Assembly (NCBI RefSeq): GCF_041075285.1
Contig: NZ_CP163512.1
Coordinates: 1,612,001-1,676,000, forward strand
Length of the DNA: 64,000 nt
Direction: 5' to 3'
Source: Providencia rettgeri
GTDB lineage: Bacteria > Pseudomonadota > Gammaproteobacteria > Enterobacterales > Enterobacteriaceae
Positions 14,058 to 45,304 of this stretch are shown one piece after another. The notes under the pieces were generated by a model. The model worked only from the letters and a program-made list of their open reading frames with translations. It had not been told where the DNA came from and did not search any database. How positions within the stretch are numbered: the first letter of the stretch is position 1; the number at the start of each line of letters is the position of its first letter. Made by a program: the position numbers and the translations under genes.

Positions 14058-14066
14058 TATATATTC

Positions 14067-14768: not shown

Positions 14769-14890
14769 TGGAACCTCTAAAAATAAAAGCGGCAGTATGG
14801 CTACCGCTTATCTAGTCATGCTATTTAACATTAGAATGATCGAACCATGCTAAATTAATTAGCACTTATATAAATCAAAACCGATGATTT

Positions 14891-15490: not shown

Positions 15491-15496
15491 TTTCAT

Positions 15497-19706: not shown

Positions 19707-20456
19707 ATGATGTTATTAAAAAACAAAGTTGCAATTATTACAGGAGCATCCTCCGGTATTGGTCAATCTACAGCACTTCTATTTGCTCAGCATGGGGCAT
19801 CCGTTTGCTTAACCGCGAGACGTGAAGAAAACCTTAAGCGAATTGCGAGTGAAATAAAGGCATTTGGTGGTAAGGTGATATATCACGCGGGGGACATCTG
19901 CTCGGAAGAAACGCATAATCATGTTATTGATAAAACGCTTAATGAATTTGGGCAACTTGATATTGCAATCAATAATGCAGGTACTGTTGGCGCTACAAAA
20001 CCTCTAGCGGATATAACATTAAAAGAATGGTTTGAAGTACAAAATACAAATATTACCGCTGCATTTATGGGGGCTAAAAGCCAAATTCCTGCAATGCTCC
20101 AAGCCGGTGGTGGCTCATTAGTATTTACATCTAGCTTTGTTGGCACTAGCTCCGCGTTACCGGGTATGACAGCCTATGGTGTCGCAAAAACCGCTTTAAT
20201 TGCATTAGCTAAAGGGATCACCGCAGATTATGCGACAAGCAATATCAGAGCAAATGCTTTACTGCCAGGTGGTGTAAACACCGATATGGCGGGCGATCAG
20301 CAACAAAAAGATTGGGCTGCAAACTTGCATGCAATGAAAAGATTGGCTGATCCTAAAGAATTAGCGTCAGTGGCATTATTTTTAGCAAGTTCAATGTCAA
20401 GCTTTGTGACAGGAACCGCCCTATTTGCTGACGGTGGTAATTCTGCTATTAAATAA
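19707..20456 (+). CDS. SDR family NAD(P)-dependent oxidoreductase
   Basis: 249-residue classical short-chain dehydrogenase. The cofactor motif TGASSGIG is at about residues 13-20, NNAG near 90, the catalytic Ser in TSSFVG and the YGVAK Tyr/Lys pair, and a C-terminal PGGVNTDM and TGTALFADGG as in glucose-1-dehydrogenase-like members. The residue ending beta-2 is Arg (TARREEN), which favours NADP. ATG 19707 follows AGAGG; the frame is open further upstream to a TTG with no ribosome site. Substrate not predictable. Confidence 0.9.
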   Translation: MMLLKNKVAIITGASSGIGQSTALLFAQHGASVCLTARREENLKRIASEIKAFGGKVIYHAGDICSEETHNHVIDKTLNEFGQLDIAINNAGTVGATKPLADITLKEWFEVQNTNITAAFMGAKSQIPAMLQAGGGSLVFTSSFVGTSSALPGMTAYGVAKTALIALAKGITADYATSNIRANALLPGGVNTDMAGDQQQKDWAANLHAMKRLADPKELASVALFLASSMSSFVTGTALFADGGNSAIK

Positions 20457-20525
20457 AAATTCGATTATTAGACTTAATTTTAAAATGTAGGATCAACGCA
20501 AGCTTTAAGCGATAAAGTTGAGTCG

Positions 20526-20966
20526 TTAACCCCTACCTTTTGGCCTATTCATGATGTGGTCTTCCCAATCTACCACATCAATTTCCCTGACGGCAATGTG
20601 ACGAACAGACACCCCCGCATTATGCATTGCCGCTTTTGAACCTGTTTTTAACGGGTGCCAAGCCGGCAAGCTTTTCCCTTCAAGCAATAACCGGTAGGCA
20701 CACGTGTTTGGCAGCCACTCAAAGGTTTCTAGGTTATAGCGGTTAAGCTTGATACAATCCGCTTCATATTCGAAGCGGTTTTCATAATGCTTACACTGGC
20801 AGGTTTTTAAGTTTAATTGGTTGCAAGCCACATTAGTGAAATAGATTTCATCTGTATCTTCATCCATTAATTTATGCAAGCAACACTGCCCACATCCATC
20901 ACACAAAGATTCCCATTCATCATCTGTCATTTCATCTAATGTCTTAACCTGCCAGAACTGCGACAT
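20526..20966 (-). CDS. ycgN: YcgN family CxxCxxCC cysteine-cluster protein (UPF0260)
   Basis: 146 residues with '[11 protein letters not shown]' near residue 22 and further conserved cysteines ([28 protein letters not shown]), the putative Zn/Fe-chelating CxxCxxxCC family. It lies directly downstream of the FAH-family gene (20 bp), as ycgM-ycgN in E. coli. Function unproven. Confidence 0.92.
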
Positions 20967-20986
20967 AATACTTATCTATCCTATAC

Positions 20987-21643
20987 TTAAATAACTCGAG
21001 TAGTCAGCGAGTGATCATTAATCGATAGCTTTAACATATCACCAGAAGCCAATGGACCGACACCTTCTGGCGTTCCCGTTAAAATAATATCTCCTGCACG
21101 TAACGTGAAGAAACGGGACATATAGCTAATAAGCGGTAAAATCGGCGTGATCATATCACGCGTCGAACCTTCTTGGCGAATTTCCCCGTTAATTTCCAGT
21201 GATAGCTGAACATTTTGCAATTCACTTGGATTATTAACTGGAATGAAACCTGAGATTGGACATGAGCCATCAAATGCCTTACTTTTTTCCCATGGTTGCC
21301 CAGCTTTCTTAAATTTAGCTTGTAAATCACGCAGTGTTAAATCAAGAGCAACCGCGTAGCCAGCGATCGCACGAGAAGCTCGGTCTTCATCGGCATTTTT
21401 TAATGGCATACCAATCAAAATGGCCATTTCCACTTCGTGATGAACTTCACCCAAATCTTTAGGGATCACTATCGATTGAGTGATATCACAAAGTGCAGTT
21501 TCAGGTTTGATAAAAATAACAGGCTCTTCAGGAACAGCTGAACCCATCTCTTTAATATGTTTGGCATAGTTGCTACCAACACAAACAACTTTGTTTGCGG
21601 GAAAATCAAGTAAAGCACCTTGCCAGTCACGATGTTGATACAT
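20987..21643 (-). CDS. ycgM: fumarylacetoacetate hydrolase family protein YcgM
   Basis: 218-residue FAH-superfamily enzyme. Metal-binding acidic residues appear in 'EVHHEVEMAILIG' and 'AVALDLTLRDLQ', and the C-terminal 'LTGTPEGVGPL' loop is present. E. coli YcgM and relatives act as acylpyruvases or oxaloacetate decarboxylase-type enzymes; exact substrate here unknown. It follows the lytic transglycosylase gene by 20 bp and precedes ycgN, so all three may share a transcript. Confidence 0.9.
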   Translation of the reverse strand: MYQHRDWQGALLDFPANKVVCVGSNYAKHIKEMGSAVPEEPVIFIKPETALCDITQSIVIPKDLGEVHHEVEMAILIGMPLKNADEDRASRAIAGYAVALDLTLRDLQAKFKKAGQPWEKSKAFDGSCPISGFIPVNNPSELQNVQLSLEINGEIRQEGSTRDMITPILPLISYMSRFFTLRAGDIILTGTPEGVGPLASGDMLKLSINDHSLTTRVI

Positions 21644-21663
21644 AAGGGTAACTCCTATTATCG

Positions 21664-22752
21664 TTATTGTATTTTTTTAGCGATGCCATCGGCCATCAAG
21701 CACACACTCAATGCAAAATAATATGAGCGGTTCCAATGCATAATGGTACGAAAGTTTTCAGTCACTAAAAATGTTCTACCTTCTGGATCATCCGGAATAA
21801 CAACCCATGTTTTTACATCCGGCGATAATTGTGCAAATGCAGGTAATTTAACCCCTAATTGCTGCCAGTCACTGACGCTTTTCCCTTGTTCTGGTTTTAC
21901 ACCTTCCAAGACTCGGTTAAAGTCCGCAGGTAAACTGACTTGGTAACCCCACGGTAATTGGGATTGCCAACCTTCTGTCGATAAATAATTGGCAATTGAC
22001 GCGAAAACATCCGCTTTATTGTTCCAAATATCCATCTTACCATCGCCATCACCATCTGCCGCATAGGACAAATAAGACGTTGGCATAAACTGGCTTTGCC
22101 CCATAGCACCAGCCCATGAACCCTTTAATTGCTGCTCTTCTGGGATATAGCCTTTATCCATTATCTCAAGTGCTGCCAATAATTGCTTACTAAAAAGCGC
22201 TTCACGACGTCCTTCAAAAGAGAGTGTAGCTAGCGCAGAAATGACATCTTCCTTGCCTTGTGAGCGACCAAATCCACTTTCAAGCCCCCAAAGAGAGACA
22301 ATAAATTGCGGGGGAACGCCATACTTTTGGCTGGTTGAATCAAGCAATGCTTGATTTTCAATATACTTATCATATCCCGCATTAATACGTGATTGAGGTA
22401 ATACGTTCTTAAGATAGCTCGCGAGTGTCACCGTCGCTCTTTTTTCTGGTTGTCCTTTATCCGCTTTTACCACACGTTCGATAAAATGAATATTGGCAAA
22501 AGCACGTTCAATCGTTGCAGGTTTGATCCCTTGAGCAATAGCATGTTCTTTCAATAATTCCACATAAGCTGGAAATTGGGATGGTTCACGCTGTTCGATA
22601 GGGAACGCCTTATCAAGGGCGGCGACTTCTTGAACAATCGCCGCGTTTTGTTCTTCAGTAATCGGTTGAGTGACAACCGTTTCATGGTTTTTTGCTGAGC
22701 AACTTGCTAAAAGCAAACCAGCGACTAATGTATATAATAACGTTGGTTTCAT
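21664..22752 (-). CDS. lytic murein transglycosylase, MltB-type lipoprotein
   Basis: 362-residue lipoprotein (lipobox LLASC) of the SLT_2/MltB family that cleaves peptidoglycan to 1,6-anhydro-muropeptides. The catalytic Glu is in 'SLWGLESGFGRSQG', followed by the conserved 'SWAGAMGQSQFMPTSYL' and 'DGDGDGKMDIW' segments. ATG 22752 lies 6 nt after GGAGG; the ATG two codons earlier touches that site. Full length. Confidence 0.92.
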   Translation of the reverse strand: MKPTLLYTLVAGLLLASCSAKNHETVVTQPITEEQNAAIVQEVAALDKAFPIEQREPSQFPAYVELLKEHAIAQGIKPATIERAFANIHFIERVVKADKGQPEKRATVTLASYLKNVLPQSRINAGYDKYIENQALLDSTSQKYGVPPQFIVSLWGLESGFGRSQGKEDVISALATLSFEGRREALFSKQLLAALEIMDKGYIPEEQQLKGSWAGAMGQSQFMPTSYLSYAADGDGDGKMDIWNNKADVFASIANYLSTEGWQSQLPWGYQVSLPADFNRVLEGVKPEQGKSVSDWQQLGVKLPAFAQLSPDVKTWVVIPDDPEGRTFLVTENFRTIMHWNRSYYFALSVCLMADGIAKKIQ

Positions 22753-22801
22753 TCGCATCCTCCAGAACGCACAAAGCTTTTCAGGTTTTTCTTAAATTGC
22801 T

Positions 22802-23071
22802 TTAAAGATTAAGCTGTTTATGTTCTGAAAGCAGATCCTCCACTGGTGGTGGGAATTGCAGGTAATAACCAACTTCTTGTAAGTCTGCCTTAACTCGCGC
22901 CAAATCAGCATTAGCAAGCTTTTCGCGCTTATCTAATGCAACAACCATAGCGAATTGAGGTGTTCCAAATTGGGCTAATAACTCTTCAGGAACGCGTGAA
23001 AAATCATCTTTCTTTTCAATATAAAGGTAGGTTTGTTCACGCTTAGGGCTTCTATAAATTGCACAAATCAT
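22802..23071 (-). CDS. ycgL: YcgL domain-containing protein
   Basis: 89-residue cytoplasmic protein matching YcgL ([20 protein letters not shown] ... [12 protein letters not shown]). Divergent from minC as in E. coli. Fold known for the family, activity unknown. Confidence 0.93.
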
Positions 23072-23200
23072 TATATTTAACTCTTTTTCTTAGCTCATTA
23101 GCTTGCTTGAAGAATACAGTAACTATAACATGCTATTGTTTTACAGAATATCTTCACCCGAGGATTGTTTCGGAAATTTTAATTTGCTGAGTCTGGATAG

Positions 23201-23902
23201 ATGCCACAATCGCCAATAGAACTTAAAGGCAGCAGTTTTACTCTTTCAGTTATTCACTTATACAGTGAAGAGCCTAAACTCATCAAAAAAGCGCTGCAAG
23301 ATAAAGTAAACCAAGCCCCTGATTTCTTTAAAAATGCCCCTGTTGTAATCAATATTGCGGAATTGACTGCAAATGCAGATTTATACAGCATTCATAAATC
23401 TGTAGTGTCCGCAGGTTTGCGTATTGTTGGTGTCAGTGGGTGTACCGACCCTTTGTTGCGCCAAAAAGCGAATGAGGCTGGCTTACCGATATTAAGTGAA
23501 GGTAAAAGCCAAAAACCTGTTGAAATTCATACTGAGGCAAATAGTGCCGCAGCACAAACTGAGCCGGTTTATCGTAAGACTCGAATTATCAATACCCCTG
23601 TTCGTTCTGGGCAACGCATTTACGCGCCAAATAGTGATCTCATCGTCACAAGTAACGTGAGTGCCGGGGCAGAGCTATTAGCAGATGGTAATATTCATAT
23701 CTATGGTGTGATGCGGGGTCGTGCCTTAGCGGGCGCTTCTGGTGATATTGAAAGTCAGATTTATTGTACCCATTTGCAAGCGGAGTTAGTCTCTATTGCA
23801 GGTGAATATTGGCTGAGCGATCAAATCCCTGCTGAATTTCTCGCCAAAGCAGCTAAACTTTGTTTAGTTGATAACAAACTTAACATCGAATATTTAAATT
23901 AG
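23201..23902 (+). CDS. minC: septum site-determining protein MinC
   Basis: 233-residue FtsZ-polymerisation inhibitor. The N-terminal FtsZ-binding domain ('[12 protein letters not shown]') is joined by a polar linker to the C-terminal beta-helix ('[35 protein letters not shown]'), which dimerises and binds MinD. First gene of minCDE. Confidence 0.97.
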
Positions 23903-23925
23903 ACCTTATTTACAAGGAATTATTC

Positions 23926-24741
23926 ATGGCACGCATAATTGTAGTGACTTCAGGTAAAGGTGGCGTTGGTAAAACCACTTCAAGCGCGGCCATAGCAACT
24001 GGCTTAGCACAAAAAGGGAAAAAAACCGTTGTAATCGATTTCGATATCGGTCTACGTAACCTTGACCTCATCATGGGGTGTGAACGTCGTGTTGTTTATG
24101 ACTTCGTCAACGTTATCCAAGGTGATGCAACACTTAACCAAGCGTTAATCAAAGATAAACGTACCGAGAATTTGTTTATTTTACCTGCTTCACAAACTCG
24201 TGACAAAGACGCGTTAACCCGCGACGGCGTTGAAAAAATTCTTGATGAACTTAGTCAAGATCTTGGCTTTGAGTTTATCGTTTGTGATTCACCCGCAGGG
24301 ATCGAAAGTGGCGCATTGATGGCGCTGTACTTTGCTGATGAAGCGATTATCACAACCAACCCAGAAGTATCTTCAGTTCGTGACTCTGACCGCATTTTAG
24401 GCATTTTAGCCTCTAAATCACGTCGTGCAGAAAAAGGTCAAGACCCAATAAAAGAGCATCTTTTACTCACTCGTTATAATCCAGGTCGGGTAACGCGTGG
24501 TGATATGTTAAGTATGGAAGACGTGCTAGAGATCCTTTGTATTCCATTAATTGGGGTTATTCCCGAAGATCAATCTGTCTTGCGCTCATCTAACCAAGGT
24601 GAACCAGTTATTTTAGATAAAGAGTCCGAAGCAGGCCAAGCTTACGATGACTGTGTCGCGCGTATTTTAGGTGAAGATCGCCCTATCCGTTTCATTGAAG
24701 AAGAGAAGAAAGGCTTCTTAAAACGCCTATTTGGGGGGTAA
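23926..24741 (+). CDS. minD: septum site-determining protein MinD
   Basis: 271-residue ParA/MinD ATPase that recruits MinC to the membrane and oscillates with MinE. The deviant Walker A KGGVGKTT is at 11-18 and the amphipathic membrane-targeting helix (KKGFLKRLFGG) closes the protein. Ribosome site AAGGAA upstream; 23 bp after minC. Confidence 0.98.
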   Translation: MARIIVVTSGKGGVGKTTSSAAIATGLAQKGKKTVVIDFDIGLRNLDLIMGCERRVVYDFVNVIQGDATLNQALIKDKRTENLFILPASQTRDKDALTRDGVEKILDELSQDLGFEFIVCDSPAGIESGALMALYFADEAIITTNPEVSSVRDSDRILGILASKSRRAEKGQDPIKEHLLLTRYNPGRVTRGDMLSMEDVLEILCIPLIGVIPEDQSVLRSSNQGEPVILDKESEAGQAYDDCVARILGEDRPIRFIEEEKKGFLKRLFGG

Positions 24742-24744
24742 ATA

Positions 24745-25029
24745 ATGGCTTTATTGGATTTCTTTCTGTCGAGAAAAAAAACGACAGCGAATATTGCAAA
24801 AGAGCGATTACAGATCATCGTTGCGGAGCGCCGCCGTGGTGATAGCGAACCCGCCTATCTTGCTGATATGAAACGCGATATCCTGCAAGTTATTTGTAAA
24901 TATGTGCAAATTGACCCTGAGATGTTATCCGTTCAATTTGAACAAAAAGACGATGATATTTCTGTTCTTGAATTAAACGTCACACTCCCAGAAGGCGACG
25001 AAATCAAAACAACAACAGCAGAAAAATAA
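24745..25029 (+). CDS. minE: cell division topological specificity factor MinE
   Basis: 94 residues: N-terminal membrane-binding and anti-MinCD segment ([30 protein letters not shown]), then the dimerisation domain. Starts 3 bp after minD; last gene of the operon, followed by a hairpin at 25039. Confidence 0.97.
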
Positions 25030-25038
25030 TTCGCAAAG

Positions 25039-25063
25039 AAGCCGCTGTACATGATGGCGGCTT
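25039..25063 (+). terminator. probable terminator of minCDE
   Basis: AAGCCGC/GCGGCTT stem with an 11-base loop, 10 bp after minE, followed by a short T-rich run. A second small palindrome (ATTAGCCAT/ATGGCTAAT) lies at 25081-25099. Confidence 0.6.
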
Positions 25064-25131
25064 GCTTTTCACCCTATTTTATTAGCCATTATGGCTAATA
25101 CCCCGTTATTGCCTTTTCGTTTTCTCTTTTA

Positions 25132-25908
25132 TTATTTATCCAATAAGAAATGAATTTGTATCTGATTTAATGCCTTAACACTTTCAGGTTTTGGGCCTAC
25201 TGAGCGGTAACGTTTTACTGCATTTAGTACAGCTTTATTAAATATTTCGTTATGCTCTGAACTAACAATAGAGACATTGATTAATTCTCCCTGAGAAGTA
25301 AGTTGGAAATGTAATACTACTGAGCCTTCAATACCCATCGTTCTCGCACGTCTTGGATACTTCTTATGGCGCTCAAGCTCATTTCGCACTTTCGCCAAGT
25401 AGCTTAACCGGATATCTTCAAGCTGTTCTCCTACAGCAACCGTTTGTTGGTTCCCTTGTACACCACTGGCTTGGGATGTTATTTCACTTTCCCCCGCTTT
25501 AGAGGGTTGTTCAACTTCATCGCTATTTGGCTTTTTAACCACTTCTTTAGATTCCACTTTTTTCTTTGGTTGTTTCTTCACTTGCTCCTTTGGCTTACTA
25601 ACTGCAGGTGTTGTTTTTGCTGAACGGTCTTCGTTATCGGTTTCATTTTGCTCTTTTGCCACTTCAATAATAGCCTGCTCTAGCTCAATGGGTGAGCTAA
25701 TCTGTCCACCTGAATCACTAATCACTTCATCAACCGTGGAAACGTGTTTTTCAAGCAGGAATTGCGTCATTGCCAACGTCATTACCGTGGCATTAACTGG
25801 TACTGCGATTTTTGCCAACGCAGTACCGACATGCTGGCTGTAATAAATGAGTCCGCAGTGTAATGCTAATGAAGCCACCATTGCTGTTATAAAACGAGAA
25901 TGTGTCAT
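25132..25908 (-). CDS. TonB-family energy transducer of the haem locus
   Basis: 258-residue TonB protein: one N-terminal membrane helix (about 7-25), a lysine-rich periplasmic linker rather than the usual proline repeats (KPKEQVKKQPKKKVESKEVV), and a C-terminal domain with 'YPRRARTMGIEGSVVLHF' and 'VSSEHNEIFNKAVLNAVKRY'. No exbB/exbD is adjacent, so it presumably uses the chromosomal ExbBD. It follows the large receptor gene across a terminator-like hairpin, implying service to that receptor. Confidence 0.93.
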   Translation of the reverse strand: MTHSRFITAMVASLALHCGLIYYSQHVGTALAKIAVPVNATVMTLAMTQFLLEKHVSTVDEVISDSGGQISSPIELEQAIIEVAKEQNETDNEDRSAKTTPAVSKPKEQVKKQPKKKVESKEVVKKPNSDEVEQPSKAGESEITSQASGVQGNQQTVAVGEQLEDIRLSYLAKVRNELERHKKYPRRARTMGIEGSVVLHFQLTSQGELINVSIVSSEHNEIFNKAVLNAVKRYRSVGPKPESVKALNQIQIHFLLDK

Positions 25909-25925
25909 TTATCATCCCAAAACAA

Positions 25926-25956
25926 ACCCCCTTATGCCGTCAAAACATAAGGGGGT
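25926..25956 (-). terminator. intercistronic terminator/attenuator between receptor and tonB
   Basis: Perfect 11-base stem ACCCCCTTATG / CATAAGGGGGT with a nine-base loop, followed on the minus strand by TTTGTTTT. It would reduce or end transcription from the receptor into tonB. Confidence 0.75.
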
Positions 25957-25961
25957 AATGG

Positions 25962-28949
25962 CTAGAATTTGCTTGTCATGCTAAAACGTAAGGTTCGACC
26001 GGGAGCCGGCATCATGCTACGTGTTAACGGGTCAATATAATATTCATCTAGTAAATTTGTTGCTAACAATTCGAATGAAAGGTCTTTGTTCACTTGGTAA
26101 TTGATGTAAGCATCGGTGGTGAAAATGGCATTCCAACGCATCGGGCTGTTATTTAATGGCGCATAATGATGAGGATACGTGTCTATCATTTCAGCTTCAT
26201 CTTCATTTTTAGCCGTACTGTGATAGCGCATACGACTACCTATTTCAAAGCGTTCATCAAGGAAACGCAATCCTAGATTAGCATGAATGCTATATTTGGG
26301 TTGCAATTGCGTACGCAAATACCCCCCTGGAAACCCTGCCGTTGTACACTCTGATCCACCAAATTTGTTATAAGGATCCATTGACATTAAAAACGCTTCA
26401 TCACACACTTCATTTTTTAATCGATAATCTAGGCCTATATCACCAAACAACCAGCCATCATCATAACGGGCTAACAACTCTACCCCTGAGGTTATATGTT
26501 TATCTACCTGCGTGAAAACTAAGTTCATGTCTCTTTCAAAGGCGTTGCTTACCACCGTATGATAATAATTAACACGCAAATCCGCATGGTTTTCTGCATT
26601 CAATCGTTCTTGGAAATTGCTGACATAACCGAGTTCTACCGTATGGCTACGCTCTGGTAAAAAGGTGGGCGGCACATAATTGAGTCCCTTACTACTGGAA
26701 AAACCAACAGTATCCTCAAAAATGCTAGGCATCCTTACCGTTTCTATATAACGTGCAAATATTCGGTCATTTTCGGTTAGATGGATGGTTGTCCCTACGG
26801 CAGGTGCCCATGCTGAGTCTTCATTTCTTTTCGCAGACACGAACCGCTCATCTCCCGTAAACTTAATTTCATCTCTGGCTAACTCTGCTACCGTCAATTT
26901 TTTAGTCATTATGCCTGTAACAGGGTCAACGTCTTCTGCCTTTAAATCCACCTCACCATTATAAAAAGGATTATTTACACGCATAAAGCGATGGTTTTCA
27001 TCGGCTAACCACTTTACAGTGTGGTTTTTTTCGGTGATCCTAAACTCTCCACTTATTCGTTGATATCTCGCATCATTTAACGCTCCGTTGGATAAGCCGA
27101 GTGCCTCCTCAATAAATAGCTTTATAACATAGGGTTTATTTTTTACATCTGCATATGTTTGCCCCTTTCTATCTTCAAAACGCTGAATTTTGTTAAATTC
27201 CTCAGCGGTTAATACACGAGATAATCGATAGTTTTTCGCCGCTATACGACTGTGCCTAGCAAATATTTCATCTTTGGCTGCTATGCGTCTTTCTTTAAGA
27301 ATATCCCTTGACCAATAGTTTATATATTGGGCGCTGGCGTTCAGGCTAAACCAGTCAGAGGGGTGCCAATCTAGCCTTATTCCGCCATTGTATTCCCGAC
27401 GTTTACCTTCCCGTGGAATTGCTCTGAACAGAACTGATTTTGGCGTTGAATTAGAGCCATAAATATCGTCTCGGCTACCAATATTTTCATCAATTAAATT
27501 CCCCATCAGTGTAATGTTAAATTCAGGGGTTAATTGAAATTTATTCGATAACGAAATGCCATAGCGATCGTTGAGTTGGTTTAGCTTAATACCATTAACT
27601 AATGAGCCGTCAATATTCAAATTTTTCGGCGTATTTGTGCTTTCAATTTCATAATACCAGTCCCGCTGAATTGGCTCCCTTGGCAATCCCCCAGCTGTAT
27701 TAGAATTTAAATCCGTTTTGGTTAACCAAGCACCGAAACGAAGATCTACCCAATTTAGTAACTCCGGTTTAAAAGCGTAATTGGCATAGAGGGTGTTTAA
27801 GGTTAGATTAGCCAGTTCCCACTGGGGAATTTGCCCCTCTAAATCATGGTAGCGAATTTGTGAGGGCATAATTTCGCCATAATGGCTTACCGTTTGCATA
27901 TAACCGAAGGAGATATCTTGGTTATTCGGTAACATGACATTCAATTTGGCTAACCAAGTGGACATCTCATTGGAGGTGTTACCCACCTCTTTATTTGGAC
28001 CATAAATTTTGGCAACAAATGGCATATACGGGTCGATAGCCTTCTGGGGATTTTGAGGGTCATAAGTAATTATGTCGTCATAATATTGCCCAGCACCTCG
28101 GCGGCCCGCAAAATAATTACCTTGGTTGCGGTAGCTGTAGGCTAACATCAGATCAAATTTCCCCTGCCGTGTTCCCATAGCTATCCTTGCCGCATTACTT
28201 TGTAAATTAAAAAAGTTAGCATTTCCCCGTGAATGAGGGCTGACTAACACCTCTTTATCTTGAAAATAGATCCCACGGAAGTTTTTCATGTTTAAATATT
28301 CAAATAAGTTTTTATCATCCCGATAATCCCCCCCGTAACTAAGGCGATTAATTCTTGGTTTAGTCGCATTGCTACTGGTTTCCAACTTTATATCAAACCC
28401 AAATTTCTCATCGGAACTGACCACATCATCAATACCAAGCGTAGCTATGGTAATTCCGCCCCCAGTAGAAGTGCGAACATCGCGGTCAAGTGTGGCACTT
28501 TTCATCACCATAATGCTACTGATCATATTTGGATCGATATAATTACGGTTATTAGCGCCATTGTAACCTCGCCAAACAGTGATAGCCTGCTCTGTTCCAT
28601 CGACAGTCACGGGAACCCGCCCTTGCCCTTGTATGCCACGAACATTAGGGTCTAATGCGCCACTATTACGCGCATCCCCGCTATACACCCCAACGGCATG
28701 GTTAATGGCATCTGCGGGATTGGTTCCCTTATAACGTTCAATTTCCTCTTTGCTAATATAAATATTCGATTCGTCTTTATCATATTGGTTATCTGCACCT
28801 TTTCTATCACGTTCTTTGATAGTTGTAGCTTTATCATTAATCAAAATAGCACCGATATTTTCCCGCTCTTGTGCATTCAGTAAGCTTGGAGTACACAACA
28901 AGGACAACCCTGTCGCGATATTGATTGCTATCACTGTTTTTACTTTCAT
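25962..28949 (-). CDS. TonB-dependent haem/hemoprotein receptor
   Basis: 995-residue outer-membrane receptor. After the signal peptide and a polar N-terminal stretch come the plug motifs 'NPADAINHAVGVYSGDARN', 'DPNVRGIQGQGRVPVTVDG' and 'ISSIMVMKSATLDRDV', then a 22-strand barrel with very long extracellular loops, ending 'PGRTLRFSMTSKF'. Length and plug style resemble the HpuB/HmbR/TdhA haem-receptor group. GGAAGGA precedes the ATG, 18 bp after the Slam gene. Haem as ligand is inferred from the neighbouring hemophore. Confidence 0.9.
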   Translation of the reverse strand: MKVKTVIAINIATGLSLLCTPSLLNAQERENIGAILINDKATTIKERDRKGADNQYDKDESNIYISKEEIERYKGTNPADAINHAVGVYSGDARNSGALDPNVRGIQGQGRVPVTVDGTEQAITVWRGYNGANNRNYIDPNMISSIMVMKSATLDRDVRTSTGGGITIATLGIDDVVSSDEKFGFDIKLETSSNATKPRINRLSYGGDYRDDKNLFEYLNMKNFRGIYFQDKEVLVSPHSRGNANFFNLQSNAARIAMGTRQGKFDLMLAYSYRNQGNYFAGRRGAGQYYDDIITYDPQNPQKAIDPYMPFVAKIYGPNKEVGNTSNEMSTWLAKLNVMLPNNQDISFGYMQTVSHYGEIMPSQIRYHDLEGQIPQWELANLTLNTLYANYAFKPELLNWVDLRFGAWLTKTDLNSNTAGGLPREPIQRDWYYEIESTNTPKNLNIDGSLVNGIKLNQLNDRYGISLSNKFQLTPEFNITLMGNLIDENIGSRDDIYGSNSTPKSVLFRAIPREGKRREYNGGIRLDWHPSDWFSLNASAQYINYWSRDILKERRIAAKDEIFARHSRIAAKNYRLSRVLTAEEFNKIQRFEDRKGQTYADVKNKPYVIKLFIEEALGLSNGALNDARYQRISGEFRITEKNHTVKWLADENHRFMRVNNPFYNGEVDLKAEDVDPVTGIMTKKLTVAELARDEIKFTGDERFVSAKRNEDSAWAPAVGTTIHLTENDRIFARYIETVRMPSIFEDTVGFSSSKGLNYVPPTFLPERSHTVELGYVSNFQERLNAENHADLRVNYYHTVVSNAFERDMNLVFTQVDKHITSGVELLARYDDGWLFGDIGLDYRLKNEVCDEAFLMSMDPYNKFGGSECTTAGFPGGYLRTQLQPKYSIHANLGLRFLDERFEIGSRMRYHSTAKNEDEAEMIDTYPHHYAPLNNSPMRWNAIFTTDAYINYQVNKDLSFELLATNLLDEYYIDPLTRSMMPAPGRTLRFSMTSKF

Positions 28950-28967
28950 TATTCCTTCCGGTGAAAA

Positions 28968-30353
28968 TTAAAATGCTTTGCTAAAATTGACACCGAACTC
29001 ACTTTGCTTATAAGAATAAATAACATCTGCACTACTATTATTGATTTGATAATTAAAATAAATTGATGGTGAAAATTGCAATATCTTAAAATTGGTTTTA
29101 TTGAATTGTGTTTTAAAATACCAGTAATGATCTACCCGTTGGGTATCCAATGACCAATCATAGCGATTAAATTTTGTTTTCCGGTAGCCTATGGTATTAG
29201 CGATCTCAGTTTTATGAATGTAATTAAATGCGCTAACAGACAGTTCATATTGACGATAACTATCACTTTCTAATTGTTTATTGTAACTGACATTGCTGCC
29301 TCGAATAATTAACTTACGATGAGTGTTAAGGATATAAACCAACCCTAATGAATAAATCCTTTCATTACCATCATGTGCCGCATATCTTTTATTATACTGA
29401 TATTCATTAACATCAACACTGGCGTAAATAGAAAGAATCTGTGATGGATAAACCTCTAATAGCCCTTTCCCACTTATCTTATAGTAATGAAATTGATTAT
29501 TTTGCCATGCCACTAAACCACTTGGTATTAAAGCTAACTTTTTATTATTATCTGCAAATTGATAACCACCATTAGCTTGCACGGTTACCTTTCTTTTACT
29601 GTCATCCCGTAAATAGTCTACCCCTGAAAAAGTGAGTCCTTGCATCCATGTATGTTGCCCTCGTAGAGGAACCATTGTCGTGCTGCTTAGATAGAAATTA
29701 TTTACCATGCTAGCACGCGTCGGTTGCCCAGTGATACACGTTCCTTTAGCGCAATATTGTTTGTCACCACCTTGAGCTTGGTCAATATTCGAATTATAGG
29801 CCATACTGAAGTTAATATTTTTATGCCATTTATAACGATTTTCTATATTTTTAATACTGTTATCAACTATGTTTTTCTGTTTATCGGTTAATTTACCATG
29901 AAATTTCACGCTGATAGCTTGATACTGTTTTAATGCATCAACATAATTTTTAACCACTAAGTAAGCTTTAGCTAATTTTAAATTCGTCGAAATAACATTA
30001 GGTTCATCATCTAGTACTTTAAGGTAACTCTCTATTGCTTGATTATATTTACCTTCATAAATAAAACGTTCAGCACGAATATAGTTAACCAATGTTTTAT
30101 CATATTCAGGTTCATTTAAGTAATCTACTAATAAGCTATCAACTTTCTCAAATTGTTTTCCTTGTGTTAAATCATAAAGAATAAAACTTATTTCGTCGAT
30201 ATTTTTATTATATTTTTTTGCTGAATTAACACCTTTCTTATCAGTTTTATTTAAAAGGGAATGGATGCTCCCAGACATATACTGACCATTAGATATCCCA
30301 TGAAAACCAAATAAAAAAATAACAATTAAAATACTAATTTTTTTCATATTCAT
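28968..30353 (-). CDS. Slam / type XI secretion outer-membrane protein
   Basis: 461 residues: signal peptide, N-terminal TPR-like helices (about 55-165; e.g. YIRAERFIYEGKYNQAIESY, LAKAYLVVKNYVDALKQY) and a C-terminal barrel of about 14 strands from residue 180 beginning with 'NINFSMAYNSNIDQA', the conserved entry to the DUF560/Slam barrel, and ending in aromatic 'GVNFSKAF'. Slam proteins move lipoproteins or soluble hemophores with TbpB-like barrels across the outer membrane. The upstream gene encodes such a substrate, as in hsmA-hphA of Acinetobacter and hrpB-hrpC of Xenorhabdus. Confidence 0.88.
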   Translation of the reverse strand: MNMKKISILIVIFLFGFHGISNGQYMSGSIHSLLNKTDKKGVNSAKKYNKNIDEISFILYDLTQGKQFEKVDSLLVDYLNEPEYDKTLVNYIRAERFIYEGKYNQAIESYLKVLDDEPNVISTNLKLAKAYLVVKNYVDALKQYQAISVKFHGKLTDKQKNIVDNSIKNIENRYKWHKNINFSMAYNSNIDQAQGGDKQYCAKGTCITGQPTRASMVNNFYLSSTTMVPLRGQHTWMQGLTFSGVDYLRDDSKRKVTVQANGGYQFADNNKKLALIPSGLVAWQNNQFHYYKISGKGLLEVYPSQILSIYASVDVNEYQYNKRYAAHDGNERIYSLGLVYILNTHRKLIIRGSNVSYNKQLESDSYRQYELSVSAFNYIHKTEIANTIGYRKTKFNRYDWSLDTQRVDHYWYFKTQFNKTNFKILQFSPSIYFNYQINNSSADVIYSYKQSEFGVNFSKAF

Positions 30354-30377
30354 ATAGTTTCAACTTTATACAAAATA

Positions 30378-30407
30378 AAAAATAGACGAAAAAATTCGCC
30401 TATTTTT
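30378..30407 (-). terminator. attenuating hairpin between hemophore and Slam genes
   Basis: AAAAATAG(a)CGAA / TTCG(c)CTATTTTT, a 12-pair stem with one mismatch and a four-base loop, ending in T-rich sequence on the minus strand. Expected to give more hemophore than exporter mRNA. Confidence 0.65.
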
Positions 30408-30436
30408 ATAAGAAGTTGTTTATGAGTAAAAACTAA

Positions 30437-31180
30437 TTAGTCTTTTTTACCCGAAAACGCGGTGTCTAATTCCTCGTGACCTGCAAATGAAGTTATACCT
30501 GCCATATGCTCTGCGTTATCACCAAAGAACTGCCCGCTACTTGTGCCATCGATAGAACCATTGGCAACCGCAATACCACTGAATTTCCCTTGATCTTCAA
30601 TTGAACCCGTCATCGTATAGCTATTGCTTACCCCTTGCAGCGAGCCGTTATAGGTTTTGTCACCAAAGTCAGCTTCAAACGCCCCTGCTAATTTAGCTTC
30701 GCCATCGAACTGATTAACCCCTTCAAGGGTATATGTGGCTTTACCGTTAGTTGGCACTGCTGTGCTGGCATTTTCCCCTGAGAAATATGCCGTGTGTCTT
30801 TTGTCCCCCTCTTCCCCTGTTTGTGACCAATCGCCATAATAAATTTCTACATCAGCAACTTGGCTAAATTGGAATTTCCCCATGCCACCATGTGGGCCCC
30901 CGCCACTTTCTAACACATAAACATTATCAGGTTTATGACTTACCATGTTTTTTAAACCAGAGAATGATATTCTCATGCCATCTTTCATATATCGGTAACC
31001 AATCCCAGGAGCACCTATAACTCCACCATGTGTCCCTCTTACTGACTGTGTTCCACCAACAATAATGTCTGTTTTTTCTCCATCATAGCTTTGGCTTTGG
31101 CCTGAAACTGCTTCAGCCATTACACCGCTAGAAAATACAGAGAAAGAAACAACTAAGGTAATTAAAGAAAGTTTTCTCAT
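30437..31180 (-). CDS. secreted hemophilin-type hemophore (Slam substrate)
   Basis: 247 residues with a Sec signal peptide ending VMA|EA and no lipobox or cysteine, so a soluble secreted protein. The N-terminal half holds Gly/His loops 'RGTHGGVIG' (His51) and 'GGGPHGGMGKFQF' (His97), plus His82, which are candidate haem ligands. The C-terminal half (from AYFSGENASTAVPTNGKATY) has the 'GxATYTLEG', 'FDGEAKLAGAFEADFGDKTYNGS' and 'FSGIAVANGSIDG' strands of the TbpB-type eight-stranded barrel recognised by Slam. AGGA precedes ATG 31180; the ATG at 31198 has no ribosome site. Operon head. Confidence 0.85.
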   Translation of the reverse strand: MRKLSLITLVVSFSVFSSGVMAEAVSGQSQSYDGEKTDIIVGGTQSVRGTHGGVIGAPGIGYRYMKDGMRISFSGLKNMVSHKPDNVYVLESGGGPHGGMGKFQFSQVADVEIYYGDWSQTGEEGDKRHTAYFSGENASTAVPTNGKATYTLEGVNQFDGEAKLAGAFEADFGDKTYNGSLQGVSNSYTMTGSIEDQGKFSGIAVANGSIDGTSSGQFFGDNAEHMAGITSFAGHEELDTAFSGKKD

Positions 31181-31282
31181 TTGTGCTATCCTTTTCATCT
31201 GAAATTAACTTATATTGATAAATTAAGATACGCATTAAAAAAAGGTATTAACCATTCTTTTAATGTTCGCAAATCAGTATAT

Positions 31283-31301
31283 GAAAATGATTTTTATTTA
31301 C
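31283..31301. promoter_or_regulatory. candidate Fur box of the haem locus
   Basis: GAAAATGATTTTTATTTAC matches 13 of 19 positions of the Fur consensus GATAATGATAATCATTATC and lies about 100 bp upstream of the hemophore start. Iron-responsive repression by Fur is the expected control for such an operon. Confidence 0.55.
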
Positions 31302-31544
31302 AAATGTAGAGTGTATTATTCAACTCATTATTGTTAGCTTTTGGTGTTAAATAAGTTATTTTATTTCAATTAGTTAGATAATCCAGAGTAATATGCTTTT
31401 ATTACCCCTTCCCTTTATCCATTTAATTAGTAATTTTTAAGAGTAATTACAAATACCGATACACTATATTTAATTAAAATAAAATTAATTAATTACTTAT
31501 TAACTCTTAATTATTCAATAATAAATAAATTAAAATTAAATATG
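31302..31544. other. AT-rich spacer between rnd and haem locus
   Basis: No ORF; part of the 400 bp gap between the rnd 3' end and the hemophore start. It includes the upstream part of the haem-locus promoter. Confidence 0.4.
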
Positions 31545-31578
31545 TATTTAGGCACAGAAATGTTCATGTGCCTAAATA
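31545..31578 (-). terminator. terminator after rnd
   Basis: Perfect 11-base inverted repeat TATTTAGGCAC / GTGCCTAAATA with a 12-base loop, immediately after the rnd stop and followed by an AT-rich run on the minus strand. Confidence 0.75.
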
Positions 31579-31580
31579 GA

Positions 31581-32702
31581 TTATGCATTGGCTAATAACT
31601 TAGAAAGAGGCTCTGCAAGTAATTTCCCTCGCCAGCCAGCAAGGAGTTCAGGTGGGGTGGTAGATGATTTTAGCCCCCAATGAATAGCGAGTAATTGGTT
31701 GATTTGCCGCCTAGACGCCAGTAACTCTGCATTAAATTTTTCGTTTTCGGCAATATCTTTCACTACCGATTTAATTTCTTTAAACAAGCTTTTATATTGG
31801 CCTTGCTCAGTAATATTCGATACAGGAGCGGGATATTGGCTTGCATCCAGTTTTTTAGCTTGCTCAACAATACTGAGCAGGCGCTTGCCATGGCAGCGAA
31901 TTTCTTGCCCTGTTAGACCAAGGCTATCAAGCTCCCCAAGAGAGGTTGGTAGGTAACGAGCCACTTTCCATAAATGCTCTTCTTTCACCACAAAATTAAT
32001 CGCCATATCCCGCGCTTTAGCTTGGTTTAAGCGCCACTGTGCAAGTAATTGCAAACACGCCAGTTGTTCATCACGTAACTGCCACGCATTGTGGATATTT
32101 AAATATGCTTTTTCTGGCTTAAGCGCTTTTTGGCGGCGCACTACCACACGTTGGCATTCATCCTTTGCATCATCTAAATAGCCTGCTTCTGTCACTTTCT
32201 TCATGAGAATTTCAGCGAGTGGTAGCAAGTACAACACGTCTGCGGTGGCATAGTCACATTGTTTTTCGCTCAAGGGGCGCGCTAGCCAGTCTGTTCGCGA
32301 TTCACTTTTGTCTAATTCAATACCGAGATGCTCAGAAACCAGTGATGCAAAACCGCAAGAGATAGGGTATCCCAAAAAGGCGGCGACTACTTGAGTGTCA
32401 ATCATGGGCTCAGGCACACAATCAAAATCATGCATAAACACTTCAAGATCTTCACTTCCTGCATGCAAAAATTTAAGCTGATTTGGATTGGTTAACAGCA
32501 TTTTAAACGGGCTGAAATCCGTTATTGATAGCGGGTCAATCAATGAAACTTGCTTTCCATCATACAGCTGTAGCAAACCTAATTGAGGATAATATGTTCT
32601 TGTACGAACAAACTCAGTATCCAGAGCAAGCCAATGTGCTTTACTGGCCTCTTGGCATACCTGGGCTAATTCGCTATCTGTGGTCACTAAACGATAATTC
32701 AA
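31581..32702 (-). CDS. rnd: ribonuclease D
   Basis: About 373-residue 3'-5' exoribonuclease trimming tRNA and other stable RNA 3' ends. DEDD motifs are seen in 'ALDTEFVRT', 'FLHAGSEDLEVF' and the C-terminal exonuclease motif 'CDYATADVLYLLPL', followed by HRDC domains. The start is placed at TTG 32702 (then NYRLVTTDSEL) because E. coli Rnd begins MNYQMITTDD from a UUG and a similar U-rich stretch surrounds it. An in-frame ATG at 32729 would add nine residues but has no ribosome site and abuts a 28 bp hairpin. Confidence 0.93.
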   Translation of the reverse strand: MNYRLVTTDSELAQVCQEASKAHWLALDTEFVRTRTYYPQLGLLQLYDGKQVSLIDPLSITDFSPFKMLLTNPNQLKFLHAGSEDLEVFMHDFDCVPEPMIDTQVVAAFLGYPISCGFASLVSEHLGIELDKSESRTDWLARPLSEKQCDYATADVLYLLPLAEILMKKVTEAGYLDDAKDECQRVVVRRQKALKPEKAYLNIHNAWQLRDEQLACLQLLAQWRLNQAKARDMAINFVVKEEHLWKVARYLPTSLGELDSLGLTGQEIRCHGKRLLSIVEQAKKLDASQYPAPVSNITEQGQYKSLFKEIKSVVKDIAENEKFNAELLASRRQINQLLAIHWGLKSSTTPPELLAGWRGKLLAEPLSKLLANA

Positions 32703-32732
32703 AACAAGTTTCTCTTTTTCTATTTTCATCAC

Positions 32733-32760
32733 AGTGACGCCGGTATATACCGGCGTCACT
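32733..32760 (-). promoter_or_regulatory. 28 bp perfect palindrome between fadD and rnd
   Basis: The half-site AGTGACGCCGGTAT is followed by its exact complement, giving a 14-pair GC-rich stem with no loop, 30 bp before the rnd UUG start and 32 bp after fadD. The minus strand has no T-run directly after it, so it looks more like a leader structure of rnd than a full terminator. E. coli rnd also has a hairpin and U-rich leader here. Confidence 0.7.
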
Positions 32761-32792
32761 TATTTGTTATCTTGATATATTCTAAATCACTT

Positions 32793-34481
32793 TTAAGCAG
32801 GTGACTTATCTCTTTTCAATTTTTCTTCATCACGTAAATCTTTACGCAGAATCTTTCCAACATTCGATTTAGGAAGTTCTTCACGAAATTCAAATAGTTT
32901 AGGTACTTTATACGCAGTTAATGAGCGGCGACAAAATGTTTTTAGCTCATCCCCAGTTAAATTCGCATTTTTCGTAACAACAAAGACTTTAACAGCTTCC
33001 CCTGTGCTTTCACTTGGTACGCCAATGGCAGCACATTCAACCACATCAGGGTGAGTCGCTATGACATCTTCAATTTCATTAGGATAAACATTAAATCCAG
33101 AGACGATGATCATGTCTTTTTTACGATCAACAATGCGGATATAACCTTCGCTATCCATTTCTGCAATATCACCTGTGGCTATCCAACCATCAACAATAGC
33201 CTCAGCTGTCGAATCTGGGCGGTTCCAGTAGCCTTTCATCACTTGCGGGCCTTTAACCCACATTTCACCCGGTTCCCCCAATGGCACTTCTTGACCTTCA
33301 TCATTGAGAAACTTTACATCCGTTGAGGGAACAGGTAGACCGATACTACCACTATATTCGGTGAGATTATATGGATTCCCTGTAACCAACGGTGAACACT
33401 CCGTAAGGCCATATCCCTCCAGTAAGTGTTTGCCTGTCAATTTCTGCCATTTTTCAGCAACCGCTTTTTGCACGGGCATTCCCCCGCCTACCGATAATCT
33501 TAAGCGCGAAAAATCCAGTTTGTGGAATTCTTCATTATGTATCCATGCATTAAATAACGTATTGACGCCAGTAATTGAGGTGATGGGATAACGCCCCAAC
33601 TGTTTAACCGTATCAGGCACATCGCGAGGATTGGTAATTAACAGGTTAACCCCTCCTACGTTAATGAAAAGTAAGCAGTTTACAGTAAGAGCAAAAACAT
33701 GATACAGCGGTAACGCCGTCACGACAAACTCGGCACCGAATTTTAATACTGGACCGTATGCGGCTCTTGCTTGCTCTAAGTTCGCTAACATATTGCGGTG
33801 GGTTAACATCGCTCCTTTCGCGACGCCTGTCGTGCCTCCGGTATATTGCAAAAACGCTAAGTCGCCCCCTGTTATATTGGGTTTAATGTATTGCATGCGA
33901 TAACCAAAGTGCATAGCACGACGGAACGAAATAGCATCGGGTAAATTATATTTTGGCACCAAGCGTTTGATGTATTTAACGACAAAATCAACAATCGTCG
34001 CTTTAGGACGTGAAAGCTGATCCCCCATGCGGGTTAAAATAACGTGTTTAACTTTGGTGTTATAGACAATTTTTTCCAATGTAGAGGCGAAATTCGACAC
34101 GATCACAATGGCAGTTGTACCACTGTCATTAAGTTGATGCTCTAACTCCCTTGGGGTATAGAGGGGGTTTACGTTCACAACAACCATTCCCGCACGCAAT
34201 ATTCCAAACAAAGCGATTGGATACTGTAATAGGTTAGGCATCATTAAAGCGACTCGGTCCCCTTTTTTAAGTCCAAGTCCATTTTGTAAGTAGGCAGCGA
34301 AAGCTCGGCTTCTTTCTTCTAATTTCCGATACGTCATTACCGCGCCCATATTAATGAAAGCAGGTTGATCGGCATATTGGGAAACGGCATTTTCCAGTAA
34401 CTCTGCTAAAGAAGCGAAGCGATCAGGATCGATTTCTTCCGGCACATCAGCAGGGTAATTTTTTAGCCAGATTTTTTCCAA
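32793..34481 (-). CDS. fadD: long-chain-fatty-acid-CoA ligase FadD
   Basis: 562-residue acyl-CoA synthetase activating imported fatty acids at the inner membrane. The AMP-binding motif [12 protein letters not shown], '[10 protein letters not shown]', '[12 protein letters not shown]' and '[21 protein letters not shown]' are intact, with catalytic Lys near the end ([12 protein letters not shown]). Length equals E. coli FadD. Upstream of rnd as in E. coli, with a FadR-like operator at 34541. Confidence 0.97.
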
Positions 34482-34540
34482 AATGTTGCTCCTGAATTTA
34501 GTGAAATTATTATACCCAACATCTCTTTTAACAAATTATT

Positions 34541-34557
34541 AACTCAGCGTACCAGTT
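34541..34557 (-). promoter_or_regulatory. FadR operator of fadD
   Basis: On the minus strand AACTGGTACGCTGAGTT, 60 bp upstream of the fadD ATG. It matches the E. coli fadD FadR site (AGCTGGTATGATGAGTT, from memory) at 13 of 17 positions. FadR would repress fadD in the absence of long-chain acyl-CoA. Confidence 0.65.
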
Positions 34558-34826
34558 TGAAAAACAGACAATGTCAAGGTTGAGAGGTCTATCACTAAAT
34601 AAATTCTATTCCTTCAAGAAAAAATAAGGCGGCATACGCCACCCAGTTTTCTGAAATTTGGTTAATCAGATGTTAATTCGCATAAATTACGCCTAATTAT
34701 ACACGGATCTTAGTTAATTTTGGAGATGTTATCAGAAAATTCCGCAACCATTTCAACTTATAAGGGAATTGTTCATAAATAAAGAAAGAAGAAAATATCT
34801 TCCGGGGATGAATTTAAGTACTTACA
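34558..34826. other. spacer upstream of fadD, first part of a 0.7 kb gap
   Basis: No ORF and no clear motif beyond the FadR site. The rest of the gap to the Slp-family gene is the second MITE-like copy and about 120 bp of unmarked sequence. Confidence 0.4.
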
Positions 34827-35071
34827 CTTAGGTTTATTTATCTTTGCTGCTTTTTTACCGCTAAAAAAGATCAAAATCCATCCAAAAAATGGATACATGT
34901 ATAGTCAGCACACTGACGACGATTTGAATCAAATATTATCCCTAAATGCTGCCCTACGGGGTCGATTAAAACACATTTCACTCATTTGATGCTGCGTTGA
35001 GAGGCTCTCGCCTTGCCTAACATGGCTTTAATTAGAATAAAAATTGACCATCAAAGATAATCAGCCCCTAG
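34827..35071 (-). repeat. MITE-like dispersed element, copy 2 (inverted)
   Basis: 245 bp reverse-oriented relative of the 8542-8818 element. Read on the minus strand it begins CTAGGGGCTGATTATCTTTG and retains 'AAAGCCATGTTAGGCAAGGC', 'ATATTTGATTCAAATCGTCG' and 'ATCCATTTTTT' in the same order. Its other end is degraded (CTTAGGTTTATTTATCTTTG). Non-coding. Confidence 0.78.
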
Positions 35072-35191
35072 TACTAGGTAATCGCCATAACTAAGGGTTT
35101 TGCTCTTCAACTTTTACAGGTAATTGAATTTGGAAAGATAGATTAAGCTGGCATAGGGTATCACTATGCCAGCTTTGAGAAATATTGATGG

Positions 35192-35788
35192 TTATTCAGT
35201 TAGGTATGTATGGACTTGTGCGGGCCCTCCCGGGTAACCGTAATAACCATACCCCCAAGGGTGGTTAAAGTACGGATCGCCATAATAACCATAGCCCCAT
35301 GGACCAGTTGGCGGGATCATTACGCTTTGTGCAACATTCCAACGTTGAAAACCAGTGACATCTAGAGTTACATATTTATAGGGAACTTGCCCAACTTTAC
35401 CCTGCTGTTCTCCGGTAATTTTCCCAACCACCGTCACATAGCGGTTCGTAAAATCACTTGGCTCACGGAAGCCATTGATATACGCATAAATACGGCCAAT
35501 CGATGGCGCATTAAGCTCAGGGGCGGCATCGTATTTACTAAGTGCCATCACCGCAATTTCTAAACGTGTCCGTGTCGGTTCATTACTCACCGCAAGCACT
35601 TTTCCGCCAAAACGCGCTTCCTGACCAATATACATTTCAGGGGCATTTTGTACAGATGTTAAATTGTCAGTGGGGTTTTGAACCGTTCCTTGAATTGATG
35701 CAGGTATTGAAACGCACCCAGTAAGTGCTAATGCGCTTGCAAAAAAAAGGCCTTTCAGTGCATCACGGCAGTTCAATTTAATATTCAT
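35192..35788 (-). CDS. yeaY: Slp family outer-membrane lipoprotein (YeaY-like)
   Basis: 198-residue lipoprotein, lipobox LTGC, Slp domain ('PEMYIGQEARFGGKVLAVSNEPTRTRLEI', 'GRFYVTVVGKI'-like 'NRYVTVVGKITGEQQGKVG'), and a C-terminal Gly/Tyr-rich tail with repeated WGYGYYG. It lies between fadD and tsaB as yeaY does in E. coli. Outer-membrane function unknown; Slp relatives are stress-induced. Confidence 0.9.
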   Translation of the reverse strand: MNIKLNCRDALKGLFFASALALTGCVSIPASIQGTVQNPTDNLTSVQNAPEMYIGQEARFGGKVLAVSNEPTRTRLEIAVMALSKYDAAPELNAPSIGRIYAYINGFREPSDFTNRYVTVVGKITGEQQGKVGQVPYKYVTLDVTGFQRWNVAQSVMIPPTGPWGYGYYGDPYFNHPWGYGYYGYPGGPAQVHTYLTE

Positions 35789-35946
35789 AGACTACCTCCG
35801 ATTAGCAACAGTATAAATTCAGGTCATACGGTTTAAAATAGTCTGTAGCAAAGAAGACACGATATGTTAAATGCGATATAAATAAGTAGGATACCTATTA
35901 ATCATATCCTAAATTTCAGCGGGATTCGATGTGTTTTTTTCTACAT

Positions 35947-35982
35947 CAAAAAAAGGCTATTTTTCAAAAAAAAACAGCCTAT
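35947..35982 (-). terminator. terminator after tsaB
   Basis: On the minus strand TAGGCT ... AGCCT with a T-rich loop and a seven-base T-run, about 25 bp after the tsaB stop. Confidence 0.6.
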
Positions 35983-36007
35983 AGATTAAAATTATTATTT
36001 TCTAAAT

Positions 36008-42650: not shown

Positions 42651-42669
42651 TGTTTGTTTCCTGAAAAAA

Positions 42670-45192: not shown

Positions 45193-45304
45193 GATAATGC
45201 AGTCTCATTAAGGTATTACGCAGGGGAGGATAATCAGTTTATTATTTAAATAGTCGTTGCTGTAGTGCGCTAGTTTATATTAACTGGCGCACTACTAATT
45301 ACTA

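Follow-up and report, generated by a model that had tools for sequence, protein, structure and literature searches.

A probable hemophilin/Slam haem-acquisition operon in Providencia rettgeri whose modules appear to differ in history

INTRODUCTION

Between rnd and minE, the chromosome of Providencia rettgeri carries four genes on one strand. What do these genes do together, and do they share one history? A first-pass annotation had read them as a hemophilin/Slam haem-acquisition locus. Here, we follow up that reading in a stretch of 64,000 nt (GCF_041075285.1, NZ_CP163512.1, positions 1,612,001 to 1,676,000, forward strand), hereafter called the window. The reading is supported: judging from the encoded sequences, the most likely role of the four-gene set is to export a small haem-catching protein and to bring the caught haem back into the cell. 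The family history of the exporter appears to differ from that of its expected cargo.

RESULTS

The four genes encode a cargo, a Slam, a receptor and a TonB

All four same-strand open reading frames that the first-pass annotation had described are present in the list of frames (Table 1). The order on the minus strand is rnd, cargo, Slam, receptor, TonB, minE, and minCDE is oriented towards the operon. Eight of the Pfam matches in the four proteins lie above the curated cut-offs.

Table 1. Positions of the genes and putative control elements of the operon in the window
Feature	Position	Strand	Matches and remarks
Hemophilin-type cargo, 247 aa	30437..31180	-	HphA_N, HphA_C, six PDB sequences, Cys-free
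Slam / type XI (T11SS) outer-membrane translocon, 461 aa	28968..30353	-	SlipAM, TPR_Slam
TonB-dependent receptor, 995 aa	25962..28949	-	Plug, TonB_dep_Rec_b-barrel
Local TonB, 258 aa	25132..25908	-	TonB_C
Promoter-like site, -35 TTGTAA / -10 TATACT	31276..31303	-	Fur-box-like 19-mer 31283-31301 across -35 + spacer
Terminator-like hairpin with T tail, cargo-Slam interval	30378..30407	-	
Strong hairpin, receptor-TonB interval	25926..25956	-	

The cargo matched HphA_N (PF22828; E 4.5e-21, 75.8 bits, cut-off 22), HphA_C over the full model length (1-113/113; E 3.1e-17, 63.4 bits) and, also above its cut-off, TbpB_B_D (E 2.9e-07, 31.5 bits); FHBP_C fell just under its threshold (27.6 bits; cut-off 28.1). 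A C-terminal TbpB-type barrel is thus supported by sequence profiles. A PDB sequence search returned six solved relatives (8gmm, 8gm3, 8glo, 9us7, 7re4 and 6om5), and five of these, 8gmm, 8gm3, 8glo, 7re4 and 6om5, are named hemophilin or haemophore. The earlier description of a divergent hemophore was therefore overstated, given scores above cut-off for both hemophilin domains and six relatives in the PDB; the Slam is the divergent protein.

The longest cargo frame reaches 31198. We preferred the start inside it, at 31180, because 39 of 47 cargo homologues (the window's own excluded) are 247-250 aa long. Read by eye, the N-terminus is hydrophobic and signal-peptide-like, ending in VMA-EA. Borders drawn by eye from the alignment place a handle at about residues 23-100 and the C-terminal barrel at about 128-247. 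The protein contains no Cys, as the first-pass annotation had stated. Therefore, although it also matched NCBIfam NF041636, 'slam_lipo' (Slam-dependent surface lipoprotein; 103.7 bits, cut-off 80), we assign it to the soluble class, TbpBBDsol, which the excerpted text of PMC8406197 gives as the cargo of TXISS-1B.

Histidines occur at positions 51, 82, 97, 129, 225 and 235. H97 aligned with the His of the SHSALG loop in 7re4 and 9us7 and with a His in 8gmm; H51 aligned with a His in 8gmm only. The haem ligands of HphA are given as H43 and H106 (PMC8560813, in excerpt), and from the alignment H51 and H97 would be their counterparts. Among 31 aligned Providencia cargos (alignment A2: the window, 25 of the 47 homologues and five sequences from loci), H51 is kept in 26, H97 in 22 and H129 in all 31.

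Several cargo variants were seen alongside. P. vermicola carries a second, tandem hemophilin gene ahead of the same Slam (L005:6874-7620, L033:6090-6836), which is 47% identical to the window cargo and has G at the H51 position. Some handles of the alcalifaciens group (P0031, P0038, P0043 and the L007 type) have N, D or E at 97 and a His two residues earlier, with F at position 51 in P0031, P0038 and P0043; the ligand chemistry of such handles may differ. A partial hemophilin 50% identical to the window cargo (P0052) is labelled Pseudomonas aeruginosa, perhaps through contamination; its longest contig has 593 bases.

The next protein has the order that the earlier reading gave it, TPR and then a DUF560 barrel. 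A profile search of 28968-30353 found SlipAM/DUF560 (PF04575) at E 3.2e-19 (70 bits, cut-off 22) and TPR_Slam (PF24575) at E 2.7e-09 (37.8 bits, barely above the cut-off of 35.2). The proposed TonB receptor likewise stood, with a receptor barrel (PF00593; E 9.9e-22, 78.8 bits) and a Plug (PF07715; 3.1e-12, 47.4 bits), both above their cut-offs. The NCBIfam haem-receptor models scored below cut-off (TIGR01785, 172/317 bits; TIGR01786, 158/324 bits), and the protein is therefore classed only as a TonB-dependent receptor. Its PDB relatives, found through the plug region, are HasR, PhuR and 9oaa; by sequence it is probably a haem/hemophilin receptor. The local TonB was confirmed by TonB_C (PF03544; E 5.3e-17, 62.5 bits, cut-off 24.6). 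Its N-terminal hydrophobic anchor carries S-x-x-x-H at residues 13-17, a motif that we take to mark TonB.

A conserved block lies upstream of the operon

The Fur-box-like 19-mer matches 14 of 19 consensus positions, and 89 of 2000 shuffles scored at least 14. By consensus score the site is thus no better than chance and was set aside as evidence of that kind; we therefore relied on the conservation of the upstream block alone. The Fur-like site and the promoter-like site fall within the longest stretch that is conserved across the 220-base upstream regions of 15 operons, among them the window's; shorter conserved stretches are also present in these regions. We infer that Fur controls the operon.

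A cargo-Slam hairpin of similar shape and different sequence was found in seven of the 14 other operons (L003-L006, L031, L049, L059) and was not seen in the other seven within the interval as cut, where a longer Slam frame start upstream may mask it. Such a hairpin would allow an excess of cargo over exporter. An RNA family scan of 20000-36000 gave nothing at gathering thresholds, and no tRNA was found in the 64-kb window. Two chaperone-usher fimbrial clusters lie at 10567-15496 and 40732-45865, both in A+T-rich stretches and both with usher, PapD chaperone and fimbrial subunits; the former has a MrkD-like adhesin domain.

The operon occupies one chromosomal site in 17 of 24 Providencia genomes

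The operon sits in the rnd-minE gap in 17 of the 24 genus genomes examined, the window's own included; this count takes in L052, with split frames, and L003, which has only the minE side on its contig. HphA_N matches occur in 22 of the 24. In the remaining seven genomes, the rnd and minE matches are separated by 0.3-0.7 kb, and this gap contains no match to cargo, Slam or receptor. In one of these genomes (G005), the gap holds a lone TonB remnant (L076:2916-3173), which suggests deletion of the other three genes. The same four-gene order occurs in another genus of the family (G035/L037).

The 4.35-Mb genome itself holds a second cargo-Slam-receptor set at about 0.52 Mb (L029:4725-9990), and no relative of the window's TonB was found in the 16 kb around it. 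The second Slam (G000:C1:521727-522956) is 26% identical to the window's and scores higher against the family (165 bits). HemS matches occur in two places, one of them 0.9 kb from a FecCD match. There are nine FecCD matches (three weak) and two ExbD-family matches, one of which may be TolR. Thus, imported haem could be handled. No haem oxygenase was found by Pfam among the window's four genes.

The Slam appears to depart from the history of its neighbours

Compared with six named Providencia operons (L003-L008), the window's operon is 52-68% identical in the cargo, 58-77% in the receptor and 34-61% in TonB, and only 26-37% in the Slam; the Slams of L003, L004, L005 and L006 are mutually 43-54% identical. 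Trees of rnd, minC, fadD and five joined flanking proteins place the window beside L005 (P. vermicola) and L049. (The rnd, fadD and joined trees do not include L003, whose contig lacks rnd and fadD.) This species-tree position was rejected by the Slam data (AU 0.006), also when P0002-P0004 were added, which breaks the branch (AU 0.001). It was not rejected by cargo (AU 0.49), receptor (0.096), TonB (0.25) or minC (0.56). The cargo data have little power, since none of the four offered trees was rejected (AU 0.34-0.55).

Trees and AU tests left out L052 (split frames for receptor and rnd), L051 (Slam in two frames, off site), loci away from rnd-minE (L029, L030, L032, L034, L035, L036, L056, L061), other genera (L037-L040), duplicates (L033 of L005, L054 of L007, L060 of L008) and L058, nearly identical to a panel operon.

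For the Slam alone, it is a real though somewhat improbable alternative that no replacement took place and that fast evolution on one lineage led to misplacement by long-branch attraction. Of the four genes, the Slam evolves fastest (tree length 6.39 for 18 sequences; 4.62 for TonB, 3.30 for cargo and 2.42 for receptor, 15 sequences each). A Slam position elsewhere inside the rettgeri-vermicola-heimbachae group was not rejected (AU 0.41; 0.069 with P0002-P0004), nor was the species-tree position by KH and SH before those sequences were added (0.080 and 0.081). However, AU rejects the place beside L005/L049 with and without the broken branch, and with it KH and SH do so too (0.0045 and 0.0055). 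Slam dN is 0.61-0.71 between the window and seven rettgeri-type relatives and 0.32-0.43 between L003 and four others. Receptor dN is alike in the two comparisons (0.15-0.24 and 0.15-0.21, respectively), and the lack of a raised receptor value also speaks against this alternative. Between the window and the seven relatives dS is near or at saturation (1.34 to infinite); therefore, an exchange is not datable by dS.

Slam searches yielded four proteins of the window's type, its own included. For two of these, a neighbouring cargo that shares the window's barrel type is suggested by tags (MASR2M36_20830/_20840) and by same-size contigs (3682). No named donor outside the genus was found, a weak result because both Slam searches also missed most known Providencia Slams. 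The cognate pairing of Slam and cargo, suggested by gene neighbourhood, is less certain than for a conserved pair because the Slam does not share the history of the cargo.

A TonB of another lineage was also seen. In P. rettgeri-group operons (L004:13340-14113, L031:11929-12693), TonB is 33-34% identical to the window's, compared with 61% for L003, and a grouping with the other rettgeri-type TonBs, L006 excluded, was rejected (AU 0.012).

In relatives, handles are exchanged over near-identical barrels

In the relatives, sequence comparison indicates that the cargo has exchanged its haem-binding half while its barrel stayed almost the same. P0006 and P0008 are 97% identical in the barrel and 55% in the handle, and P0034 and L008 are 99% and 56% identical, respectively. 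The handle data rejected both pairs as sisters (AU 0.001 and 1.6e-07), and they rejected the four window-type cargos as one clade (AU 0.017). The P0008 handle resembles P. vermicola-type cargos (P0021-P0023), a grouping rejected by the barrel data (AU 0.0017), which also rejected P0006 and P0007 as sisters (AU 0.012). Barrel data did not reject the window with P0006 and P0007 to the exclusion of P0008 (0.21), nor P0041 with P0047 and L008 (0.12).

Within the alcalifaciens group, the handle dN of the L008/L050 type against the others is 0.40-0.46. For the same pairs barrel dN is 0.03-0.06, or 0.16-0.19 against L053 and L057, which have a different barrel beside the common alcalifaciens Slam. 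In the six pairs without L053 or L057, dS likewise rises from 0.31-0.92 in the barrel to 1.14-2.26 in the handle, the pattern expected if an old allele had been imported.

Barrel and Slam distances correlate among rettgeri-type operons (r 0.79, p 0.0002, 10 operons; r 0.61, p 0.009 with near-duplicates collapsed, seven operons), a correlation that physical closeness alone could yield. The corresponding handle-Slam values are r 0.35, p 0.022 (10 operons), r 0.62, p 0.0001 (all 17) and r -0.08 (the alcalifaciens seven); the handle adds nothing once the barrel is given (partial r 0.08, -0.01 and 0.06). As a general rule, that barrel type follows Slam type was rejected, since it fails in the alcalifaciens group (r 0.13, p 0.32, seven operons). 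The barrels of the window and L003 (P. heimbachae) are 75% identical and their Slams 31%.

Taken jointly, we tentatively read the operon as a set of exchangeable cassettes, at a little short of an even chance. Allelic types of the handle would replace one another on barrels that hardly change, with some types lacking one or both candidate axial His residues. The Slam, and in other lineages TonB, would be exchanged whole, with the receptor left in place. The window's Slam would be foreign to its species and act on a barrel 75% identical to that of P. heimbachae.

DISCUSSION

We consider it very likely that the four genes form a Providencia operon of the hrp/hph type, which scavenges haem under the control of iron. 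In low iron, Fur would leave the promoter at about 31276-31303, and the cargo would cross the inner membrane by Sec. The neighbouring Slam would recognise the cargo barrel and release the cargo in soluble form outside the cell, where its two loop histidines, H51 and H97, would bind haem in a bis-His manner. The cargo would then deliver this haem to the 995-aa receptor, for which TonB, ExbB and ExbD would supply the energy, and the onward route may run through a conventional permease and a HemS-type protein whose genes lie away from the operon.

We favor this explanation because of what the operon displays directly, namely its gene content, gene order, conserved site, conserved promoter block and domains over cut-offs, and because of the six PDB relatives, the H51/H97 alignment, the 17 of 24 genomes with same-site operons, the shared order in G035/L037, the HemS, FecCD and ExbD matches and the published function of HrpB/HrpC and of HsmA/HphA/HphR/TonB. 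Against it we count the Fur-site score, the receptor scores below the haem-model cut-offs, the separate history of the Slam and the second Slam in the genome.

The kind of system is already known. In the excerpted text of PMC8406197, the Xenorhabdus hrp locus consists of a TonB, the TBDR HrpA, the Slam HrpB and the cargo HrpC (TXISS-1B); it is called conserved across proteobacteria, and HrpB is shown to export HrpC. The first-pass annotation had likened the locus to those of Xenorhabdus and Acinetobacter, and this holds: as far as the excerpted sources go, the gene content matches the published loci and the order matches hrp (PMC8406197, PMC8560813). With hrp (PMC8406197, in excerpt) the operon shares the same four genes in the same order, a soluble single-barrel cargo, a Slam and a TonB-dependent receptor; the genus differs, and the likeness is one of gene content and order. 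The excerpts of PMC8560813 report that HphA, HsmA, HphR and a TonB-related protein of A. baumannii together let E. coli use haemoglobin. The A. baumannii hemO cluster, like the operon, has cargo, Slam, receptor and TonB, and the window cargo is alignable with the hemophilin 7re4; the window's four genes differ in lacking a haem oxygenase. HphA has a lipobox (PMC8560813, same excerpts), whereas the window cargo has no Cys. Haemophilus haemolyticus Hpl (6om5), which the window cargo matches by profile over residues 72-247, has one His ligand according to these excerpts (PMC8560813), whereas the window cargo has two candidates.

P. rettgeri PROVRETT_08181 and PROVRETT_05852 are named as hemophilin homologues in the excerpted text of PMC8406197; they share the genus with the window cargo. 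That paper was the only one that a word search found to bring Providencia and hemophilin together. The system and its P. rettgeri homologues are therefore in print (PMC8406197, in excerpt), and what appears to be new is the differing histories of the modules; in titles and the opening parts of abstracts, we found no description of modules being exchanged here.

Could the same machinery catch another metal complex instead of haem? The T11SS cargo CrpC is termed 'cobalt receptor protein' in the excerpted PMC12282271, and handles vary strongly in the genus, some being without H51 or H97. However, the window cargo keeps both histidines and clears the cut-off of the haem-binding domain HphA_N (75.8 bits against 22), and we regard another ligand as unlikely. 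A secreted hemophilin could also serve mainly to starve competitors of haem rather than to feed its producer, much as H. haemolyticus hemophilin lowers H. influenzae colonisation (PMC10964412, in excerpt); we think this quite improbable, as a receptor and a TonB in the same operon point to uptake. Least likely of all, and very doubtful, is that the second Slam, with its higher family score, exports both hemophilins and that the divergent local Slam, whose history differs from that of cargo and receptor, is not this cargo's exporter, since the local frame is intact and passes both Slam cut-offs and its type recurs in three further sequences, two of them apparently beside a cargo of the window's barrel type.

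Returning to the exchange of modules, the title of the 2024 J Bacteriol paper on the hemophilin family (Grossman 2024) gives hemophilins specific T11SS secretors and calls them diversifying. If the reading of the operon as exchangeable cassettes is true, it would supply natural pairs for finding the barrel residues that are read by Slam. The material lies at one chromosomal site: similar barrels with unlike Slams in the window and L003, and one Slam type with two barrel types in the alcalifaciens group. The handle alleles, not all of which have the expected His residues, raise the question of whether the hemophilins of one genus all bind haem alike.
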